Shown here one piece after another: positions 11,689 through 21,729 of a stretch of 39,129 bases of DNA. The stretch's first letter is position 1, and each line of letters begins with the position of its first letter. This DNA is from Chloroflexota bacterium (lineage in GTDB: Bacteria > Chloroflexota > Anaerolineae > J102): positions 1 to 39,129 of the forward strand of contig JAADII010000022.1 in the NCBI GenBank assembly GCA_013151415.1, written 5' to 3'. Below the pieces are notes generated by a model. The model saw nothing but the letters and a program-made list of their open reading frames with translations. It had not been told where the DNA came from and ran no database searches. The position numbers were made by a program, and so were the translations under genes.

Positions 11689-12333
11689 TCAGCGGCGCCC
11701 TTCTTGCACCGCAGCAATGAACGCCGCCGCGCGCCGCGTGAGTTCGGCCATATCGCTGCGCTCGAGCAGAGCCTGGTTGATGAGACTGCCGCCCACGCCC
11801 AGGGCGACGGCCCCGCTGCGAATAAACGCCGCGGCTGTATCTAAATTTACGCCGCCCACAGGCACAATTTCCAGTTGAGGCAACGGCGCTCGGATGGCTT
11901 TGACCAGGGCTGGGCCGCCCACGCTGGCCGGAAAAAGCTTGACCATGTCGGCGCCCGCCTCCCAGGCTGCAAGCATTTCGGTGGGAGTGAAGCAACCGGG
12001 AATGACCGGAACGCTGTATCGACGACACATGGCCACCATTTGCGGGTTGAATGTGGGCGCGACAATGAAACCAGCGCCCGCCAAGATGGCCGCTCGCGCG
12101 GTTTCAGCGTCCAGCACCGTTCCCGCGCCGAACAGCACCTCTTCGCCATATCGTTTGGTGGCTTGGGCAATGACATCCAACGCGCCAGGCGTGGTCATGG
12201 TCACTTCGATGACCTTCACGCCCCCAGCCTTGATGGCGTCTGCAGCTGCGATGAGCTGTTCGGAGCTCTGGGCGCGCATGATGGCGATGACGCCTGTCTG
12301 GCGAATGAGATGCAATTTTTCGGTTTTGTTCAT
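11689..12333 (-). CDS. eda: 2-keto-3-deoxy-6-phosphogluconate (KDPG/KHG) aldolase
   Basis: This 214-residue class I aldolase splits KDPG into pyruvate and glyceraldehyde-3-phosphate. Key segments are GVIAIMRAQ (phosphate/substrate entry), VIEVTMTTPGA with the catalytic glutamate, LFGAGTV, IVAPTFNP, VIPGCFTPTEML, MVKLFPAS with the Schiff-base lysine, and PVGGVNLDTA plus GVGGSLIN for phosphate binding. All expected residues are present and the length is normal. ATG 12333 has an AGGAGA ribosome site. It is the last gene of the minus-strand cluster, 21 bases after the sugar-acid kinase, and together they would turn 2-keto-3-deoxygluconate into central metabolites. The family can also split 4-hydroxy-2-oxoglutarate or KDPGal, so the stereochemistry of the natural substrate cannot be read here. 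Confidence 0.9.
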   Translation of the reverse strand: MNKTEKLHLIRQTGVIAIMRAQSSEQLIAAADAIKAGGVKVIEVTMTTPGALDVIAQATKRYGEEVLFGAGTVLDAETARAAILAGAGFIVAPTFNPQMVAMCRRYSVPVIPGCFTPTEMLAAWEAGADMVKLFPASVGGPALVKAIRAPLPQLEIVPVGGVNLDTAAAFIRSGAVALGVGGSLINQALLERSDMAELTRRAAAFIAAVQEGRR

Positions 12334-12354: not shown

Positions 12355-13512
12355 TTAACGGGAAGTGCGCTTGCCGCCGCCCAACGCGTCGGCTTTCATG
12401 AGCGCCTGCACCTCGGCCCTATCAATAATGGGAAGATCAAACATGAGCGTTTGTTTGAGGCGCGTGGCCGCATCGCCCACCATGACGCCTTTCGCCAACC
12501 CCTCGGCTCTGAAATCCTCTGTCAGCAGGCCATAATAAAAGCCGGCATTCCAGGTGTCTCCACCTCCGAGACGATCCAGCAGCGTGATCGGGCGAACCAC
12601 GGGGGAGCGAAAGAAATGGCCCTCGGCGTCAACCGCGGCGGATTCCCATCGATGTTGCTCGAAAGAATCGGGATAGCGAATGGTGATGGCCACAATCTTG
12701 GTATTGAACAGGGCGTGAAGCTGTTCGGCAAAGGCCCGGATGTCATCGTTTTCCAATCGTCCCATCTCTCCATCGATGATTTGTTTTGGGGAGTATTGTC
12801 CGCAGCCAATTTCATATAGTTTCGCCATGTCTTCGATCGTGGTGATAAGGATATCGACATATTCGGTGATCAGAGGCGTCATGACCGCGCGCGCTTGTTC
12901 AGGAGACCACAAGGTGGCGCGGTAGTTGAAATCCAAGCCCACAAGACAGTTCTCCGGCTTGCTGGCAATGGCTTCCATAAAAGCCTCATAGCAGTAGTTT
13001 CGCGAATAGCCACTATGAGCGGCTAATCCAAAGGTGATGCCCGATGTATGAAACAAACGCGCGTTTTCCAGCGCCGCAGACCAATTCACCATGCCAGCGT
13101 CCAGCTTTGAGGCCGCCGAAAACATGCGTTGATAGACGCCCACATTCTTGCGAGGAGTGCGGCCAATCTCGTAGATAAAACGTCCGATCGGTTCTGTTTT
13201 GGGCGCCCAAACGAAGAATGTTGTATCGACGCCCTGTTCACGCGCCAGATTGCGCAAGGAGCGTCCATAAGGGTTGTCGGGCACGCGCGTAATGTAGGCT
13301 GATGGTATGCCCAGCCGACTCAGCCCAACCGCCAGGGTGAATTCACTGCCCGCCATGGACAAATGAACCAACCGGGTTCGTTCGGGTCTTTCCATATCGG
13401 CGGGCGTGTCGCGCACCATCACCTCGCCAAATGTGACGAAAACAGGGCGCGCTTTTTGAAAGCGATCGAGGTCATCGCGAGTGATATCGTAATATGGGAT
13501 TCTCTCCATCAT
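12355..13512 (-). CDS. kdgK: PfkB-family sugar kinase, probable 2-keto-3-deoxygluconate kinase
   Basis: This is a 385-residue ribokinase-family (PfkB) kinase. The N-terminal FVTFGEVMVRDTP is the KDG-kinase-type substrate entry, followed by MAGSEFTLAVGLSRLG (sugar-binding GG-like region), VPDNPYGRSLRNLAREQGVDT and CLVGLDFNYRATLW. The signature LLDRLGGGDTWNAGFYYGLL carries the catalytic aspartate in the GGGD form, which occurs in KDG kinases and differs from the GAGD of many ribokinases. It is longer than the usual 310-340 residues, with extra length at the N-terminus and in the middle. ATG 13512 has an AAAGGA ribosome site 5 bases away (a second ATG follows at once). It lies directly upstream of the KDPG aldolase gene. 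KDG is the best substrate guess; other keto-deoxy sugar acids are possible. Confidence 0.75.
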   Translation of the reverse strand: MMERIPYYDITRDDLDRFQKARPVFVTFGEVMVRDTPADMERPERTRLVHLSMAGSEFTLAVGLSRLGIPSAYITRVPDNPYGRSLRNLAREQGVDTTFFVWAPKTEPIGRFIYEIGRTPRKNVGVYQRMFSAASKLDAGMVNWSAALENARLFHTSGITFGLAAHSGYSRNYCYEAFMEAIASKPENCLVGLDFNYRATLWSPEQARAVMTPLITEYVDILITTIEDMAKLYEIGCGQYSPKQIIDGEMGRLENDDIRAFAEQLHALFNTKIVAITIRYPDSFEQHRWESAAVDAEGHFFRSPVVRPITLLDRLGGGDTWNAGFYYGLLTEDFRAEGLAKGVMVGDAATRLKQTLMFDLPIIDRAEVQALMKADALGGGKRTSR

Positions 13513-13593: not shown

Positions 13594-14091
13594 TCAAGTT
13601 GCGTCATCCTCGAGATACTTGGGATGCCATTCGACCCCCTCCCACGAGGTGATTTTTTCTGGCTTCAAACGCACCAGATAGCGAGGTCGAGAGAGCGAAG
13701 CTTCAAGATATTCGGGTCCTCGTTCGCCCAAATACCGCAACGCCATGCGTCGCCCTATCTCTAGCATGCGTCCCTCCATGGGCTTGGGGCCTTCCAAAAT
13801 TTCCGCTTCGCCCTCGAAGAGCACGCGCGTAAAAGGGGCGCTATCCATTGCACATGAAATGCAAATGCGAGGGTTCTCTTTGATGTATTTCATATATCTG
13901 GCTTTGGCCCGCGGAATGAAATACACGGCTTCTCCGTCATATTCTTGCCAGACGGGTGCAATGTAAGGGGCTCCGTCCGGTTTGACCGTCCCCAATCGCG
14001 CCACAATGGGTCCGGCCAAAAACTCGATGATTTCTTCATTGGTCAGACCGCGCATTTTGCCCATCCAATTCGAAGACTGTGATTGCGCCAT
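13594..14091 (-). CDS. Pyridoxamine-5'-phosphate-oxidase-like split-barrel flavin protein
   Basis: This 165-residue protein belongs to the split-barrel flavin-binding superfamily (PNPOx-like, F420/FMN users). The signature is FLAGPIVARLGTVKPDGAPYIAPVWQ..., followed by AVYFIPRAKARYMKYIKENP and ICISCAMDS. The tail (EGVEWHPKYLEDDAT) lacks the C-terminal substrate motif of true PdxH. It is therefore not expected to be the vitamin B6 oxidase. It lies in the middle of the sugar cluster (gaps of 81 and 88 bases to its neighbours). An association with the catabolic genes is possible, but nothing in the protein shows which substrate it reduces. An A/G-rich site (AAGGAGGAAGAAAC) precedes the ATG. Confidence 0.8.
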   Translation of the reverse strand: MAQSQSSNWMGKMRGLTNEEIIEFLAGPIVARLGTVKPDGAPYIAPVWQEYDGEAVYFIPRAKARYMKYIKENPRICISCAMDSAPFTRVLFEGEAEILEGPKPMEGRMLEIGRRMALRYLGERGPEYLEASLSRPRYLVRLKPEKITSWEGVEWHPKYLEDDAT

Positions 14092-14179: not shown

Positions 14180-14932
14180 TCACCAGCCATAGGTGAAGTT
14201 GGGCGGAACAAGCAATCCATCCACAATGTTCAATGCAGCGTCGATGTGTCGCTGGCCTTTGCTTAATGAGATGGTTAGATGACCGGGTAGCAATGCATCG
14301 ATTTCTGCGTTGCGCAGCTTGCTTAGGCTATCAAGATGCGCGCGCAGATCGCAATCCCAGGTGTTTTGGAGCAAGATTTTGCCTCCGAAAAACACCAAAT
14401 CCCCGCCAAAAAGAATGGTTTTGCCGTTGCAACTCAGCAAAAATGAAACATGCCCCTGACTATGGCCCGGCGTTTCAATGGTTTCCAATTCGAGAGCGCC
14501 AATTTTCACCCGTTGACCTTCTCTTAATTCCACATCCACCTGACAAGGTTCGAAGCGGTAATCGGGCGGATAAAGACCCACCTCTTTTGCTTTCGCCAAT
14601 GTGATGGCCTCTTCATCGCCCTCTTGCAGAAATCGCGCGCATGCCGCATGCATATAGACGCGAGGGTTGCCCAGGGCCTTCACCAATTTGGCGGCGCCGC
14701 CTGCATGATCGGCGTGCGCGTGGGTCAATAACACATGACGGACCTGGGCCAAGTCGAAGCCGTGGTCGCGTATGTTTTGCAGGATTTGCGGAACGCCCAA
14801 GCCCGCTCCGGCGTCGATGATGGCCAGTTCTTCGCCGCCATCGACCAGATAGATATGACAATCGTAGTCGTCTGTCATCCCAAAACCCTGAAGGCCGCTG
14901 CCGATCAGGTAGATGTGTTCCATGAGTTTCAT
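14180..14932 (-). CDS. MBL-fold metallo-hydrolase
   Basis: This 250-residue enzyme is started at ATG 14932, because GGAGGG stands 5 bases ahead of it. An earlier ATG at 14947 lacks a ribosome site. The metal ligands are complete: LLTHAHADHAGG (HxHxDH), PGHSQGHVSF, LFGGDLVFFGG and LLPGHL. The central part (residues about 100-170) is helical, as in glyoxalase II and lactonase-type relatives. The neighbourhood of sugar-acid genes makes a lactone or thioester substrate attractive, but that is inference. The family is too broad to name the reaction. The gene is 18 bases downstream of the aminotransferase, so the two are surely cotranscribed. Confidence 0.8.
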   Translation of the reverse strand: MKLMEHIYLIGSGLQGFGMTDDYDCHIYLVDGGEELAIIDAGAGLGVPQILQNIRDHGFDLAQVRHVLLTHAHADHAGGAAKLVKALGNPRVYMHAACARFLQEGDEEAITLAKAKEVGLYPPDYRFEPCQVDVELREGQRVKIGALELETIETPGHSQGHVSFLLSCNGKTILFGGDLVFFGGKILLQNTWDCDLRAHLDSLSKLRNAEIDALLPGHLTISLSKGQRHIDAALNIVDGLLVPPNFTYGW

Positions 14933-14950
14933 GGCTGCCCTCCACATTGG

Positions 14951-16195
14951 TCAAGTTGTCTGGTTCGAGCGGTGAAGCGTTTCGACTGCGGCCTCGATGC
15001 GGCGCAGTCCTTCACGTAGTTTATCTTGCGCGGTTGCGAAAGAAATGCGCATGTAACCCTCGCCATGACGTCCGAAATCGACCCCGGGCAAAACAGCAAC
15101 GCCGTTTTCAAGAAGATGATTGGTGAATGTCCGCACGTTGGCCGTTCCCAAAGCGGAAACATCTGGCAATGCATAGAAAGCCCCTGCGGGCATGGTGCAA
15201 CTCACGCCGGGCATGGCGTTCAACCGTTCGACCACCAAATTGCGACGCACTCGATATGCTTCTCTCATGGCCGCAACGCAATCCTGCGGGCCGCGTAGCG
15301 CAGCAATGCCGGCGTCTTGAGCAAAAAGCGGCGTGCAAGAATAGTTGTTGATGGCGATGTTGGTGACCGGTTCAACCAGTGGCTTAGGAAATGCGCCATA
15401 TCCCAGACGCCATCCGGTCATGGCGTATGATTTGGAAAAGCCGTCGAGTAAAATAGTGCGTTCGGCCATTTCAGGTATGGCGGCGATACTTTTCGGCGGC
15501 TCATCATAATAAAGCTGTGAGTAAATTTCATCTGAAAGTAACCATAGATTATGCTGCAAAGCAAGTTCGGCGATGGCTTCCAACTCCGCAGCGCGGATTA
15601 TGCTTCCGGTTGGATTGCCCGGCGAGTTGAGAATAAGCAGTTTGGTGCGCCTGGTGATGCGCTCTTTCAGCGCGTCGATATTCACCTGGAAGCCGGTTTC
15701 TCCGCGCAAGGGCAGCGACACCGGGGTTCCGCCTGCAAATCGAACTGTCGCCTCATATGCCGGAAACCCGGGATCGGGAATGATGACTTCATCCCCTTTT
15801 TCAACAAGCGCCAAGACGGTCATAAAAATGACGGGTTTACCGCCCGGCGTTACAATGATGCGTTCCGGGCTCACCCTCACTCCGCGGCTCGCGGCCAAAT
15901 GATCGGCGATGGCCTCGCGTAGCTCCCAAATGCCAGGCGCGGGCCCATAGCGCGTGCGGCCCGCTCTAATGGCGTCGACGCCGGCCTGGACGATGTGCGT
16001 TGGCGTGGGGAAATCGGGTTCTCCGATTTCCAGGTGAATGATGTCGATCCCGCGGGCCTCCATGTCGAGTGCGCGGCTTAAAGTCTCCAGCGCGCCTTCG
16101 CCGGGAATGCGGCGAGCGCGCGCGGCCATTGGCCGCAATGTTTCGACCGAAGACATGGGATCGTCGTTTGGTTGCGCTTGCTCTATCATGCTCAT
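14951..16195 (-). CDS. PLP-dependent class I/II aminotransferase
   Basis: This 414-residue protein has the fold-type I aminotransferase layout. It contains DIIHLEIGEPDFPTP (substrate arginine/glycine region), RYGPAPGIWELREAIADHL and VTPGGKPVIFM. NSPGNPTGSII holds the asparagine that contacts PLP. LSDEIYSQLYYD holds the PLP aspartate and tyrosine, and DGFSKSYAMTGWRLGY the Schiff-base lysine. MRISFATAQDKLREGLRRI near the end has the arginine that binds the substrate carboxylate. It is most like the AspB/thermophilic aspartate-aminotransferase group (AT-I gamma). ATG 16195 has GGAGAAAC ahead. The N-terminal 30 residues are an extension. Its place between a Gfo/Idh/MocA dehydrogenase and an MBL hydrolase in a sugar-acid cluster is unusual. 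It could transaminate an amino-sugar acid or simply be a hitchhiking aspartate or alanine aminotransferase. Confidence 0.85.
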   Translation of the reverse strand: MSMIEQAQPNDDPMSSVETLRPMAARARRIPGEGALETLSRALDMEARGIDIIHLEIGEPDFPTPTHIVQAGVDAIRAGRTRYGPAPGIWELREAIADHLAASRGVRVSPERIIVTPGGKPVIFMTVLALVEKGDEVIIPDPGFPAYEATVRFAGGTPVSLPLRGETGFQVNIDALKERITRRTKLLILNSPGNPTGSIIRAAELEAIAELALQHNLWLLSDEIYSQLYYDEPPKSIAAIPEMAERTILLDGFSKSYAMTGWRLGYGAFPKPLVEPVTNIAINNYSCTPLFAQDAGIAALRGPQDCVAAMREAYRVRRNLVVERLNAMPGVSCTMPAGAFYALPDVSALGTANVRTFTNHLLENGVAVLPGVDFGRHGEGYMRISFATAQDKLREGLRRIEAAVETLHRSNQTT

Positions 16196-16216: not shown

Positions 16217-17263
16217 TCAGCCCCAGGCGCCAAGCGCCACATGCACTGGTTGTTGAGTATGTGCAGATTGTTGAATGGCCTCGACAATGGCCAACCCGCT
16301 GACGGCGTCATCCAATGAAGCTATTTTCGAGGGACGATTCTCCCGAACGCATTGGACGAAATCCGCTATTTCCATACGCAATGCGCCCTGGATGGAACCC
16401 ATAACGCGAGGCCATGCGCTCAATTCTGGGTGCGCCACGCCTTCGTCCGTCCAGATCGAGAATCCGGAATTTAGGAAGTCGAGCTTGGCCGTAGCTTTGG
16501 CGCCCACGATTTCTAGAGAAGCGTCGATGGTTCCGCCCAGTTCCAGGGTTGTTTGGGGTGCGCCATCGGGCACAAGCCAACTGGCGTCGATCAGGGCGAC
16601 CGAGCCATTTTCAAACTCCAGGATCGCGATGCTCGTATCCGGGCCGCCGTAATCCAAAAACGAACGATCGACCGCGTAGACTCTCGTACAAGGCGCGGCA
16701 ACGTACCACAGGGCCAAGTCGATATCGTGAATTGTGGATTCGAGCATGGGATGGACAGTGTGACCATACTGATAAAACCAGGTGCGAGACGCGTGGCGCT
16801 TGAGCCGCAGCGTGGCCAGGCGGCCAAAGCGTCCGGCAAGAATTTGTTCTTTGAGGTGAGCGTGACGCAACTCATAGCGAAGGATGAACCCAACCTGTAG
16901 CTGCAATCCCTTTTTTCGCGCCAGGGCCGCCAGTTTTGCGGCCTCGCGAAAAGTGAGCGCCAGCGGTTTCTCGACAAAAACGTGGAGCCCACGCTCTAAA
17001 GCCGCTTCGACCATGATCGCGTGTAATGCATCGGGCGTAACAATGTGCACTGCATCCAGCTCAGCCTCTGCAAGCATAGCCTCATAGCTGGTGGTGTGGT
17101 AAGGCGCGGCGAGTGAGAACGCGACTTCAGCCAAAATGTCGGGGCGAGTGTCGCAAAGTGCGACCAATTCCGCCTGTGGCAAGCTTTGAAGCGTCTCTGC
17201 ATGGAGGCGACCAAACCGGCCCAGGCCAACGACTCCAACGCGAATCCGATGCATGGCGTCCAT
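16217..17263 (-). CDS. Gfo/Idh/MocA-family NAD(P)-dependent oxidoreductase
   Basis: This 348-residue protein has an N-terminal Rossmann fold (IRVGVVGLGRFGRLHAETL; the GLGRFG dinucleotide loop near residues 13-18). VHIVTPDALHAIMVEAALERG and VFVEKPLALT follow; the latter holds the conserved EKP lysine. The C-terminal beta-sheet domain has HPMLESTIHDIDLALWY with the family's H-x-x-D-x-x-x-W pattern. The whole matches inositol-2-dehydrogenase and glucose-fructose-oxidoreductase relatives. Such enzymes oxidise a hydroxyl on a sugar, inositol or sugar acid. It starts 4 bases after the downstream end of the permease gene, so it is tightly linked to uptake, and it would catalyse the first oxidation of the imported compound. 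ATG 17263 has AGGGAA very close. ATG 17254 is an alternative start. Confidence 0.85.
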   Translation of the reverse strand: MDAMHRIRVGVVGLGRFGRLHAETLQSLPQAELVALCDTRPDILAEVAFSLAAPYHTTSYEAMLAEAELDAVHIVTPDALHAIMVEAALERGLHVFVEKPLALTFREAAKLAALARKKGLQLQVGFILRYELRHAHLKEQILAGRFGRLATLRLKRHASRTWFYQYGHTVHPMLESTIHDIDLALWYVAAPCTRVYAVDRSFLDYGGPDTSIAILEFENGSVALIDASWLVPDGAPQTTLELGGTIDASLEIVGAKATAKLDFLNSGFSIWTDEGVAHPELSAWPRVMGSIQGALRMEIADFVQCVRENRPSKIASLDDAVSGLAIVEAIQQSAHTQQPVHVALGAWG

Positions 17264-17267
17264 TTCC

Positions 17268-18098
17268 CTATCGAATGGCTCCCATGGTCAGCCCGCGCAC
17301 GATGTGTCGTTGAATGTAGGCCACCAAAACGAACGCGGGTACAAGAGAAAGTGAGGCGAGGGCGCTCATCAATGGCCAGTCGAAGCGCATGGTCCCCGCA
17401 ATGGCGGTGATCAACACAGGAACGGTGACGGCTTCGCTCGAGGTGAGCACAAATGCAAAGAGAAATTCGTTCCAAGAGATCATGAACACCAGGGCGCTCA
17501 CCGCCACCAACATGGGCATGCTCATGGGGATGACCACGCTCCATAACAGCTGAAGCAGATTGGCGCCATCGAGTCGAGCCGATTCCTCCACTTCTTCAGG
17601 CAATTCGATGAAGTAACTTCGCAATAACCAAATAGCCAAAGGCAAATTGATGGTGAGATGAACCAACGCCACCGAAACCAGTGAATCTAACAATCTGGCC
17701 TGACGCATCAAGATGAACATGGGCACAATGATGCCAAAGGCCGGGGCCATGCGAATCGACAATATCCAAAAGGCGATATGTTCAGTCGCGTTGGAGCGCC
17801 AGCGCGCCAGCGCGTAACCCGCGGGAACGCCCAAAAGCAAGGAGAGGGCCACATTCACGGTGGCGATAAGCGCGCTGTTGAAAAATGCCTTTTGCAAACC
17901 GCCTCCCAAAAATACTTTGCGGTAGGCGTCGAAACTGGGCTTGAAAATCAGCTGGGGCGGCAATTGGAGCGCCTGGGATGTCGTCTTGAATGAACCTTGA
18001 ATGACCCAGACAATGGGGGTGAGCACGAACAAAAGGTAGAGGGCGATGAGCGCATATATGATGATGCTTTGTCGGCGAGAACGACGGCGTCCGAGCAT
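17268..18098 (-). CDS. Carbohydrate ABC transporter permease, MalG type
   Basis: This 276-residue inner-membrane protein has six predicted helices. It opens with RRRSRRQSIIIYALIALYLL and then FVLTPIVWVIQGSF. The EAA loop, which docks the ATPase, is ELPEEVEESARLDGANLLQL (residues about 170-190), followed by VVIPMSMPML. Length and motif belong to the MalG/UgpE/LacG group of the CUT1 family. Paired with the MalF-type gene 10 bases upstream, it would form the membrane channel of a sugar importer. No ATP-binding subunit is encoded in the window, so a shared MsmX/UgpC-like ATPase encoded elsewhere is expected. Confidence 0.92.
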   Translation of the reverse strand: MLGRRRSRRQSIIIYALIALYLLFVLTPIVWVIQGSFKTTSQALQLPPQLIFKPSFDAYRKVFLGGGLQKAFFNSALIATVNVALSLLLGVPAGYALARWRSNATEHIAFWILSIRMAPAFGIIVPMFILMRQARLLDSLVSVALVHLTINLPLAIWLLRSYFIELPEEVEESARLDGANLLQLLWSVVIPMSMPMLVAVSALVFMISWNEFLFAFVLTSSEAVTVPVLITAIAGTMRFDWPLMSALASLSLVPAFVLVAYIQRHIVRGLTMGAIR

Positions 18099-18108
18099 GA
18101 TCCACGTC

Positions 18109-18960
18109 CTAGGCGGTCAAGCGAGTCATACGGCGGATGAGCATCGAACTGGGCGCGACTGTCAGGATAAGCATGATGACGGCCAACGCACTGGCCTGTC
18201 CCAGGTCGAAGTGAACAAAACCGATCTTCCAGCCAAGCAAGGGCAATGTCTGCGTGGCTACGCCAGGGCCGCCCGAAGTCATGACAAAAATGAGATCGAA
18301 TACGTTCATGGCGTCAATCAGGCGTAAAACCAAAGCCAGGGCGATGGTGGGCCGTAGCAATGGGAGGATGATCTCCCAGATAAATTGCATGCTATTGGCG
18401 CCATCCATTTCCGCCATCTCATAGAGGTCTGTGGGAATGGCTTGCAACCCGGCCAAAAAGATCAGGAACATGAGCGGGGTTTTGGCCCATAAATCCGCGA
18501 TCAGGATGGCTATGAAGGCCAACGTCGGTTCGGCCAAAACGCTCGCCTTCAGGCCGAGCGAAGGCAGGAGCCATCCACCGATCAGACCCACTTCACGACT
18601 TAAGAGAAATTTCCAGGAAAATCCAGCCACGACCGGAGGAATAATCAGGGGCAGAACAACCAGCGTCCGCAGCAAGCCCTTGGCCCTCAATGCGCCAGAC
18701 ATGAGAACGGCCAGGAAGAAGCCCACTATGGCTGTGAGCAGCGTGCTCAAGACCACATATCGTATGGTCACCCAAACCGAGCTATGGAACACCGGTGAAC
18801 GCAAGAGGGTCTCGAAATTGCCAAAGCCCACGAACTCCAGGCCCGGAACATAAAGGAACCATTGGTGAAAGCTGACATACAGCAGATACACCGTGGGGAA
18901 GGCGACGATTAGGAGAAGAACAATCAACGCCGGAGAGAGTAAGGCAATGTATTTCTTCAT
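18109..18960 (-). CDS. Carbohydrate ABC transporter permease, MalF type
   Basis: This 283-residue membrane protein has six helices. It begins MKKYIALLSPALIVLLLIVAFP and YLLYVSFHQWFL. The EAA loop is DLYEMAEMDGANSMQFIWEI (residues about 180-200), then PLLRPTIALALVLRLIDAMN and FDLIFVMTSGGPG, a stretch diagnostic of the MalF/UgpA/LacF (CUT1) group. It forms a heterodimer with the MalG-type permease encoded next. The start at ATG 18960 is clear. It is separated from the binding-protein gene upstream by 122 bases that contain a strong hairpin. That is a usual arrangement when the binding protein must be made in excess. Confidence 0.92.
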   Translation of the reverse strand: MKKYIALLSPALIVLLLIVAFPTVYLLYVSFHQWFLYVPGLEFVGFGNFETLLRSPVFHSSVWVTIRYVVLSTLLTAIVGFFLAVLMSGALRAKGLLRTLVVLPLIIPPVVAGFSWKFLLSREVGLIGGWLLPSLGLKASVLAEPTLAFIAILIADLWAKTPLMFLIFLAGLQAIPTDLYEMAEMDGANSMQFIWEIILPLLRPTIALALVLRLIDAMNVFDLIFVMTSGGPGVATQTLPLLGWKIGFVHFDLGQASALAVIMLILTVAPSSMLIRRMTRLTA

Positions 18961-18990: not shown

Positions 18991-19067
18991 ATCACGCATC
19001 CTTGAGGGTAGTGTGCGCTTCGCCCACGAAGCGCACACTACAAGACCTCAGGCGATCGAAATCGCGT
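18991..19067. promoter_or_regulatory. Intercistronic stem-loop between the binding-protein and permease genes
   Basis: GTAGTGTGCGCTTCG (19008-19022) and CGAAGCGCACACTAC (19027-19041) form a perfect 15-base-pair stem with a CCCA loop. Outer elements can extend it: CTTGAGG pairs imperfectly with CCTCAGG, and ATCACGC near 18991 pairs with GCGTGAT near 19061. In sugar ABC operons such hairpins usually protect the binding-protein mRNA 3' end or attenuate downstream expression. A REP-type repeat origin is also possible. Confidence 0.75.
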
Positions 19068-19082
19068 GATAAGTGGTGCCGG

Positions 19083-20552
19083 TTAGCGATAGTACCCTGC
19101 GCGAAGCATGCGTTCTGTGGCCCAGGATTGCAGCTGAGATAGCGCATCCTCAGCGCTCTGCTCGCCCGCGATCACGGTTGAGACCGAGGTGCCGATTCTA
19201 TCCATGAACTCCACCAGTTCCGGGATATAAGGGAAGTAGAACGGGTTGGAGTTTACAATGGCGTCTTCGTTGAGCTGGATCTCCTCCTCACCCCAGCGCT
19301 CCACCAATGAAGGGCTGTGCATGACCGATTTCATGGTCACAGTGGGCCAGCCGACGCGATCGGCGAAGGCCTGTTGCGACTCTTTGCCCGTGAGGAATGT
19401 CAGCACTTTCCAGGCAGCCTCTTTGTTCTTGCAGTCGGCGTTGATGCCCAGGGAGAATGTCCAGAAGCTTTGCACAAACTCCCCGCTTGGCCCCACAGGC
19501 GAGGGCGCGAAGTCGCTGTTATTTTTGACGACTTCGTTGTCGGTGAAGGTGAGCGCTGCATATCCGTTGATGGCCGAGGGCATTAGAATGGCGGCTTTCC
19601 CCTGCATATAGAGGTTCATCATATCCACCCAGGTGTGTGTGGCGGCCCCCGGCGGCCCATATTTCTGTAGAATGTCGGCAAAAGCCGTGAAGCCTTGCGC
19701 GAAATCATCCGAGGTGAAAATGGGTTGCGCTTTCGTGGCCTTGATTTCCTCCGCGGTGATTGGGCCGCCTTCAAACCAGGCGGGATAGCCGGCGTATGCA
19801 TATACGAAACCGAGCAAATCGAGCGAAGGCTCTTCGCCGGGCGCGCCCCGCATCGTGATCGGATACACATCATCAATGCCGTCAGCTTCCAGGCCCGCCT
19901 TGAGAGTCTCGAGCACCTGGTACAACTCGTCCATGGTTTTCGGCGGCTCCACCCCATATTTCTCGAAAAGATCGGTGCGATAGATCATGCCCGGACCAAA
20001 GGAGTAATAGGGTAGCGCATAGAGCGTTCCATCCATGCGGTTCGCATCCAAGAAGTTGGCGTACACATCGTCTAGCTCGAGGTAATCCTGAGGATATTTG
20101 GTGAAATACTCATCCAAAGGCTCCAGCAGGCCGCCCGAACCGTAAGTTTGGACGCCCCCATCGCTTCCGGCCAACACAATGCAGAAGCGCCCGGTTCTCG
20201 CGGCCAGATCCGTCGCAACCTTCTGCCGAACCGCGGTTTCATCACCCCATTCGATGACAACATCCACATATTCGGCTTTTTCAAACTCCTTCAATCGTTC
20301 TGTTTCACTCACCCCGTCGTCTCCGAAAAGTTCAGGCCAAGAAAACCCCTGCCCAAAAGTGATGATGCGAACCTCGACAGGCTCTGATGGGGTGGGGGTG
20401 GGTTCTGGGGTCGGCGTATCTTGCGGAGCGGGCGCCTCTGTTGCCGCCGGTTCTGTCGGAGGCGCAGATGTGGGCTCCGGCGCTGCCGCGCACGCAGTCA
20501 ACAACAATGTGATCAGTGCCACCAAGGCAATATGTCTGTACAGGCGGTTCAT
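19083..20552 (-). CDS. Sugar-binding lipoprotein of the ABC importer
   Basis: This 489-residue extracellular solute-binding protein (family 1, maltose/glycerol-phosphate type) starts at ATG 20552, because AAAGGAGA precedes it and the signal peptide begins there (MNRLYRHIALVALITLLLTAC). The lipobox LTAC puts the mature lipoprotein cysteine near residue 21. A proline/threonine/alanine-rich linker (residues about 25-55) tethers the domain to the membrane. The binding domain follows: VEVRIITFGQG, FEKAEYVDVVIEWGDETAVRQK, LYALPYYSFGPGMIYRTDLFEKYGVEPPKTMDEL, GKAAILMPS and NKEAAWKVLTFLTG. All are typical of CUT1 binding proteins. It serves the two permeases downstream. The ligand cannot be deduced from sequence. 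Context suggests an oligo-uronide, an aldonate or another acidic sugar. Confidence 0.92.
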   Translation of the reverse strand: MNRLYRHIALVALITLLLTACAAAPEPTSAPPTEPAATEAPAPQDTPTPEPTPTPSEPVEVRIITFGQGFSWPELFGDDGVSETERLKEFEKAEYVDVVIEWGDETAVRQKVATDLAARTGRFCIVLAGSDGGVQTYGSGGLLEPLDEYFTKYPQDYLELDDVYANFLDANRMDGTLYALPYYSFGPGMIYRTDLFEKYGVEPPKTMDELYQVLETLKAGLEADGIDDVYPITMRGAPGEEPSLDLLGFVYAYAGYPAWFEGGPITAEEIKATKAQPIFTSDDFAQGFTAFADILQKYGPPGAATHTWVDMMNLYMQGKAAILMPSAINGYAALTFTDNEVVKNNSDFAPSPVGPSGEFVQSFWTFSLGINADCKNKEAAWKVLTFLTGKESQQAFADRVGWPTVTMKSVMHSPSLVERWGEEEIQLNEDAIVNSNPFYFPYIPELVEFMDRIGTSVSTVIAGEQSAEDALSQLQSWATERMLRAGYYR

Positions 20553-20681
20553 GTTTGTCTCCTTTCGTTTGCTACGTGACGCTGCAAAAAGTGAAAGCGC
20601 TCGAACGTGAAAAAACATTGTTGTGCATCATGGAAGGGTCTGGCGAGGTCGCGGGCGTCAGGCCCGACGCGCAGGTCTGAC

Positions 20682-20696: not shown

Positions 20697-20700
20697 CTAC

Positions 20701-20727
20701 CTAAATTCTTTCCATTGGCGCCCTCCT
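20701..20727 (-). promoter_or_regulatory. Four-codon mini-ORF with a strong ribosome site
   Basis: On the minus strand AGGAGG (20727-20722) is followed after 6 bases by ATG GAA AGA ATT TAG (20715-20701), encoding MERI. A perfect Shine-Dalgarno sequence at ideal spacing in front of a stop after four codons is unlikely to serve a normal protein. It could be a leader peptide regulating the binding-protein gene about 150 bases downstream, or the stub of a lost gene. Confidence 0.35.
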
Positions 20728-21653: not shown

Positions 21654-21667
21654 GGTTGTTCCATATA

Positions 21668-21682
21668 TGAAACAGAGTTTCA
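21668..21682. promoter_or_regulatory. Perfect 15-base palindromic operator candidate (IclR/KdgR-like)
   Basis: TGAAAC-AGA-GTTTCA is a perfect 6-3-6 inverted repeat. It lies 15 bases ahead of the regulator ATG and about 12 bases after the predicted start of transcription. The GAAAC/GTTTC arms match, as I remember it, the KdgR box of enterobacterial pectin regulons. Its position fits repression of the regulator's own gene. Confidence 0.65.
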
Positions 21683-21685
21683 ATT

Positions 21686-21695
21686 ATTGTACAAT
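21686..21695. promoter_or_regulatory. Second palindrome at the regulator start site
   Basis: ATTGTACAAT is a perfect 10-base palindrome, three bases from the 15-base operator candidate and centred on the predicted start of transcription. It may be a second half-operator for an IclR tetramer. It is AT-rich and short, so chance is possible. Confidence 0.35.
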
Positions 21696-21700
21696 TGATG

Positions 21701-21729
21701 ATTATAGCCGACCCTTGGCTTGTTGTCAA
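21701..21729 (-). promoter_or_regulatory. Perfect consensus sigma-70 promoter of the IclR gene
   Basis: The minus strand reads TTGACA (21729-21724), a 17-base spacer and TATAAT (21706-21701), identical to the sigma-70 consensus in both boxes and in spacing. It begins directly after the MFS stop codon. Such a strong promoter in front of a regulator gene suggests that it is normally held down by a repressor. Confidence 0.85.

Follow-up and report, generated by a model that had tools for sequence, protein, structure and literature searches.

IclR-family regulators and their sites have been surveyed by Suvorova and Gelfand (2021; PMC8222616), who analysed 1340 members of the family and recognized two types of motifs. 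Their group 2 motif reads TGRAACAN1-2TGTTYCA, the commonest site centre is at -22 from the gene start, three-box sites occur in 32 regulator groups, and no Chloroflexota figure among the group 2 regulators. The KdgR motif given there, RWWGAAACGNCGTTTCAKKA, is one instance of the group 2 type. Outside the enterobacteria, an IclR-family KDG repressor, KdgR, has been described in Caldicellulosiruptor (PMC8579813), and the IclR-family KdgR of Thermotoga was predicted without control of kdgK and kdgA (PMC3750489). A literature search for Chloroflexota work on IclR regulators or KDPG returned nothing relevant.

The locus considered here lies in a 39,129-nt stretch of a Chloroflexota genome (the window, i.e. 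the whole stretch analysed); its features are listed in Table 1. On the minus strand, the elements in front of the regulator gene follow one another in the order TTGACA-ACAAGCCAAGGGTCGGC-TATAAT-CATCA-ATTGTACAAT-AAT-TGAAAC-TCT-GTTTCA-TATA-TGGAAC-AACC-ATG. The perfect TTGACA-N17-TATAAT claimed in the initial annotation is indeed there, with its 17-nt spacer; such a sequence occurs once in the window and never in shuffles. The 4.52-Mb genome contains 12 of them, against none for the reversed control. The TGAAAC-N3-GTTTCA sequence announced in the leader was also recovered: it forms TGAAACTCTGTTTCA, downstream of the promoter and of ATTGTACAAT. A third half-site, TGGAAC, had been overlooked; with it, the three boxes alternate in direction. 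The centre of the palindrome, at 21675, is at -22 from the regulator ATG (21653), and a direct reading of the group 2 consensus gives one disagreement over its 14 letters. As relatives in two phyla have the same layout (see below), we take the promoter and the predicted IclR-type operator in front of the sugar-acid cluster to form a real control switch, of a known kind.

Table 1. Position of the promoter, the putative operator and the genes of the cluster in the window
Feature	Position	Strand	Remarks
Sigma-70-type consensus promoter	21701..21729	-	-35 = 21729-21724, -10 = 21706-21701; 12/12 consensus letters
Perfect palindrome ATTGTACAAT	21686..21695	both	Spans the predicted transcription start
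Putative operator boxes 1+2, TGAAAC-TCT-GTTTCA, IclR-family group 2 palindrome	21668..21682	-	13/14 letters; kept in relatives
Putative operator box 3, TGGAAC	21658..21663	-	4 nt from box 2 (most relatives: 5 nt)
IclR-family regulator, 259 aa	20874..21653	-	Pfam HTH_IclR + IclR_C; Lys40 in recognition helix
ABC transporter sugar-binding lipoprotein	19083..20618	-	SBP_bac_1; likely start 20552, lipoprotein signal begins at internal ATG
ABC transporter permease	18109..18960	-	BPD_transp_1
ABC transporter permease	17268..18098	-	BPD_transp_1
Gfo/Idh/MocA-family dehydrogenase	16217..17263	-	Profile searches
Class I/II aminotransferase	14951..16195	-	Profile searches
Metallo-beta-lactamase-fold hydrolase	14180..14947	-	Profile searches
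PNPOx-class flavin-fold protein	13594..14091	-	Profile searches
PfkB-family kinase, probably KDG/KDGal kinase	12355..13512	-	Passes no NCBIfam equivalog cut-off
KDPG/KHG aldolase	11689..12333	-	TIGR01182 181.1 bits, cut-off 156.05

The palindrome ATTGTACAAT stands where it had first been placed, at the start site (21695-21686 on the minus strand); the start itself would be at about 21694, as deduced from the position of the -10 box alone. It is found once in the window and twice in the genome. We rejected it as a second operator: the sole other genome copy has no promoter-operator context, and ATTGTACAAT is absent from the promoters of the related loci compared. It is possibly incidental.

The arrangement was then compared with that of relatives, in which the palindrome is enriched: upstream of 136 relatives, at least 9 of its 12 letters are present in 40 cases (about 10.5 in shuffles). 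The three-box pattern was scanned as TGRAA-N5-TTYCA-N4..6-TGRAA, with a threshold of at least 13 letters out of 15; the window site has all 15, its second pair being 16 nt long, i.e. one short of the published length. At this threshold, 16 hits were obtained upstream of regulator, kinase or aldolase genes, where shuffles gave 0.65; a few of these 16 rows repeat one locus, and four loci (L050, L168, L169 and L223) are no independent tests since the pattern was partly defined on them. Fifteen rows out of 16 agree in orientation relative to the gene. In ten loci (L053, L054, L155, L157, L168, L169, L170, L171, L223 and L224) a promoter of consensus or near-consensus sequence precedes the site by 6-16 nt, seven of these promoters being 12/12 matches. 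Relatives with the three-box layout belong to Chloroflexota and Bacillota, and the gene behind the site is often that of a KDPG aldolase or a KDG kinase; Natroniella (L050) has TGAAACAGCGTTTCATATATAAAAAC, nearly the window sequence, in front of a KDG-kinase-like gene. Three-box sites also precede IclR genes at L054 and L170, with no KDG gene found nearby. Of the non-redundant kinase/aldolase loci of the same class, 13 have an adjacent IclR gene and 8 of these carry the site (five IclR-linked KDG loci are without it), whereas the 20 with no such neighbour all lack it (Fisher p = 9e-5, a value which ignores kinship). Since the layout is kept in relatives, it shows that the predicted promoter-operator arrangement of the window goes beyond chance.

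Within the genome itself, the palindrome TGAAACNNNGTTTCA has two exact copies, one in the window and one on contig C95 inside a 553-aa reading frame. When one mismatch to the palindrome is allowed, almost every match falls within a reading frame, and the one-mismatch three-box places inspected lie within reading frames or on their borders, with no sugar gene seen behind any of them. C39:11314, a candidate located between two reading frames, was not retained, its spacer and arm resembling a Shine-Dalgarno sequence. A genome-wide regulon was likewise discarded: the near matches are almost all coding, and those inspected have no sugar-gene context. A pattern search of the 4.52 Mb, together with inspection of stretches, thus gave no second convincing operator site, near related genes or elsewhere. 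The initial annotation, which had called for such a search, had also pointed to sister genomes; there, such sites do stand before KDPG-aldolase and KDG-kinase genes.

A further link between site and regulator comes from the recognition helix, whose position 28 (published numbering) is Lys40 in the window regulator. Where this residue is lysine (window, E. coli KdgR, L049, L050, L054 and L170), half-site position 6 is C; with Ser, Asn or Thr it is mainly A or T (G in one case). Half-site position 6 played no part in the three-box scan. At L072 (Lys) and L159 (Arg) the agreement is limited to one side of the site. For group 1 motifs, a Lys-G contact had been predicted independently (PMC8222616). 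Because the lysine covaries with C at position 6, these data argue that the adjacent regulator is the binder of the putative operator. The promoter, the predicted operator, their conservation and their tie to the neighbouring IclR gene are all supported by the sequence and these comparisons.

What follows is inference as regards binding by the regulator, the sign of its effect, transcription running on into the transporter genes, and the effector. The strong consensus promoter would fire at about 21694. The regulator would sit on TGAAAC-TCT-GTTTCA, aided by box 3, no further than ~40 bases into the transcript, as a steric block to initiation or early elongation; steric repression is suggested by the short distance from the strong promoter to the site downstream of it, and the same positional argument has been used for the repressor sites of KdgR and others in Caldicellulosiruptor (PMC8579813). 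Repression would thereby cover the regulator gene itself and, via read-through, the transport and catabolic genes, and would be lifted by a metabolite derived from the imported sugar acid, the likeliest candidate being KDG or a close relative (KDGal, KDPG). Altogether, we consider it probable that the adjacent IclR-family regulator has its operator here and represses its own gene and the downstream cluster until relieved by a sugar-acid metabolite. What weighs against this reading is the spacing of boxes 2 and 3 (4 nt rather than the usual 5), a gap of 255-321 nt between the regulator and transporter genes, the five IclR-linked KDG loci that lack the site, and the comparable sites at L054 and L170.

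The initial annotation had the cluster end with KDG kinase and KDPG aldolase: the aldolase scores above its cut-off, and the kinase is a PfkB protein of the KDG-kinase kind, resembling KDG/KDGal kinases as well as the kinase portion of a protein in which KDPG aldolase and kinase are fused. As it passes no cut-off, the KDG kinase label is probable rather than certain. The PNPOx-class gene may belong to the pathway, since it is similarly linked in two other loci: IclR, PNPOx-class, KDG-kinase-like and KDPG-aldolase-like genes are directly in a row in a Bacillota locus (L064:2148-4700) and near one another in an Actinomycetota locus (L082:10001-18400). In clusters of the same class, RraA-like aldolase-family genes were seen near IclR and KDPG-aldolase genes (L157:363-1040, L159:7332-8009 and L163:10526-11272). 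The binding-protein gene is separated from the first permease gene by a stretch with a perfect inverted repeat of 12 bp, TAGTGTGCGCTT..AAGCGCACACTA (19009-19040), perhaps an mRNA-stabilizing or attenuating hairpin.

The regulator, the only detected match to itself in its genome, is a member of the IclR family (HTH_IclR, 66.2 bits for a cut-off of 22; IclR_C, 194.5 bits for a cut-off of 24). It is below the cut-off of the KdgR equivalog NF011671 (197.5 bits versus 275), so that KdgR membership by NCBIfam profile was rejected, and equally below those of BhcR NF045644 (202.3 versus 350) and of the PcaR/PcaU/PobR subfamily TIGR02431 (196.3 versus 284.75). No close orthologue above 44% identity was found among relatives, and in a tree the regulator falls in no supported group and is not joined to E. 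coli KdgR. It has in common with E. coli KdgR and the KDG-linked Bacillota regulators an RMYS-x-[IV]-G motif, which is absent from E. coli IclR, AllR, PlaR and MhpR; RMYS is also absent from the Chloroflexota KDG-linked clade. As to the resemblance of the arms to the KdgR box, put forward at the outset, it is real, the core being equal to that of RWWGAAACGNCGTTTCAKKA with 15 of the 19 specified letters; as RWWGAAACGNCGTTTCAKKA is itself a group 2 instance, the resemblance is family-wide and is no pointer to KDG.

From gene linkage and the RMYS motif, we favour a sugar-acid intermediate as effector. A KDG-like ligand is suggested by the terminal kinase and aldolase genes, by the recurrence of the IclR-kinase-aldolase linkage in Chloroflexota and Bacillota, and by the motif common with E. 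coli KdgR. For KDG itself we would go no further than possible, somewhat short of probable, because the profile scores are similar, tree placement is lacking, RMYS is missing in the Chloroflexota clade and sites occur at L054 and L170. The same operator and repressor could respond instead to a compound outside the KDG kin, such as a glyoxylate- or pyruvate-like keto acid or another sugar acid on which the cluster's dehydrogenase and aminotransferase act. Equal scores with three profiles, all below cut-off, an unplaced regulator, a family-wide motif and a kinase under every equivalog cut-off speak for such an effector, the terminal kinase-aldolase pair, its recurrent linkage to IclR genes and the RMYS motif against it, and we give it a serious though less than even chance.

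How far repression would extend is a separate matter. If the regulator controlled its own gene only, the transporter and catabolic genes would be under a promoter of their own and some other control, as might be expected from the 255-321 nt gap and from the fact that no IclR site was found before the transporter gene. Yet neither a sigma-70-like promoter nor a terminator is predicted on the minus strand of this gap, which makes read-through the simplest reading, and relatives have this site at the head of an aldolase-regulator-kinase-transporter run; restriction to the regulator gene is therefore unlikely in our view, and read-through into the transporter gene is what we would expect. The gap also contains AGGAGGGCGCCAATGGAAAGAATTTAG (20700-20727, minus strand), which provides a good Shine-Dalgarno sequence, next a possible 4-codon frame (MERI) and after it two small inverted repeats; a leader and the remnant of a gene are both conceivable.

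Some IclR-family members are activators, e.g. PobR, PcaU and MhpR (the last annotated as such), so the site might serve to recruit polymerase rather than to block it. Its position downstream of a perfect promoter in need of no help, the conservation of this layout in relatives, and the fact that sites so placed are taken as repressor sites in Caldicellulosiruptor (PMC8579813) make activation very improbable. That the inverted repeat acts as a hairpin of the leader RNA, within which it is transcribed, was rejected as hardly credible: shuffled sequences fold as well as the leader (z +0.48), and the half-site letters and a third box are conserved across loci and vary with the recognition residue, for which an RNA stem would have no use. 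A chance palindrome behind a strong promoter, conceivable because short palindromes are common, the choice was made post hoc and the other genome copies are in coding DNA, is just as implausible given the perfect match, the family-typical position and a layout conserved in two phyla.

The window would supply a concrete promoter-operator pair for carbohydrate regulation in Chloroflexota, a phylum in which, to our knowledge, few regulators have been studied. More speculatively, and with less than even odds, a KDG-responsive switch of the IclR type, in which a three-box operator directly follows a consensus promoter, may be common to Chloroflexota and some Bacillota. If this is true, IclR-based KDG control is widespread and arose several times or moved between phyla, and the third box permits two dimer arrangements. 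The conserved association of a strong promoter with a three-box site would be a good substrate for examining the alternative dimerization proposed for IclR-family proteins.

Comparison with the known systems places the locus as follows. We take TM0065 of Thermotoga maritima to be the Thermotoga KdgR, the one predicted not to control kdgK and kdgA. This IclR-family protein (PDB 1mkm) is the best match of the window regulator among solved structures, but identity is 34% and Val replaces Lys in the recognition helix. The gamma-proteobacterial KdgR has the same core TGAAAC-N3-GTTTCA, a recognition helix of the SKSxxYRxLQT form and the RMYSRIG motif, and it controls KDG-type genes, as predicted here; the window regulator differs in its 37% identity, below the NCBIfam cut-off, in 4 of the 19 motif letters, and in having a single site instead of a multi-operon regulon. 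The KdgR of Caldicellulosiruptor is an IclR-family KDG repressor from a distant phylum whose sites overlap promoter elements or lie in 5' leaders, but its regulon covers glucuronate and galacturonate genes and the likeness is by description, not sequence (PMC8579813); such repressors being already published, a KdgR-like logic in a distant phylum has a precedent. The agreement with the group 2 and three-box sites of PMC8222616 extends to the core, the centre at -22, the three alternating half-sites and the Lys paired with G:C at the half-site edge; the difference is the 4-nt spacer between boxes 2 and 3, which gives a 16-nt pair versus 17-18 nt for their group 1 pairs. Such sites would thereby be extended to Chloroflexota, as far as the literature shows a new phylum relative to that survey.
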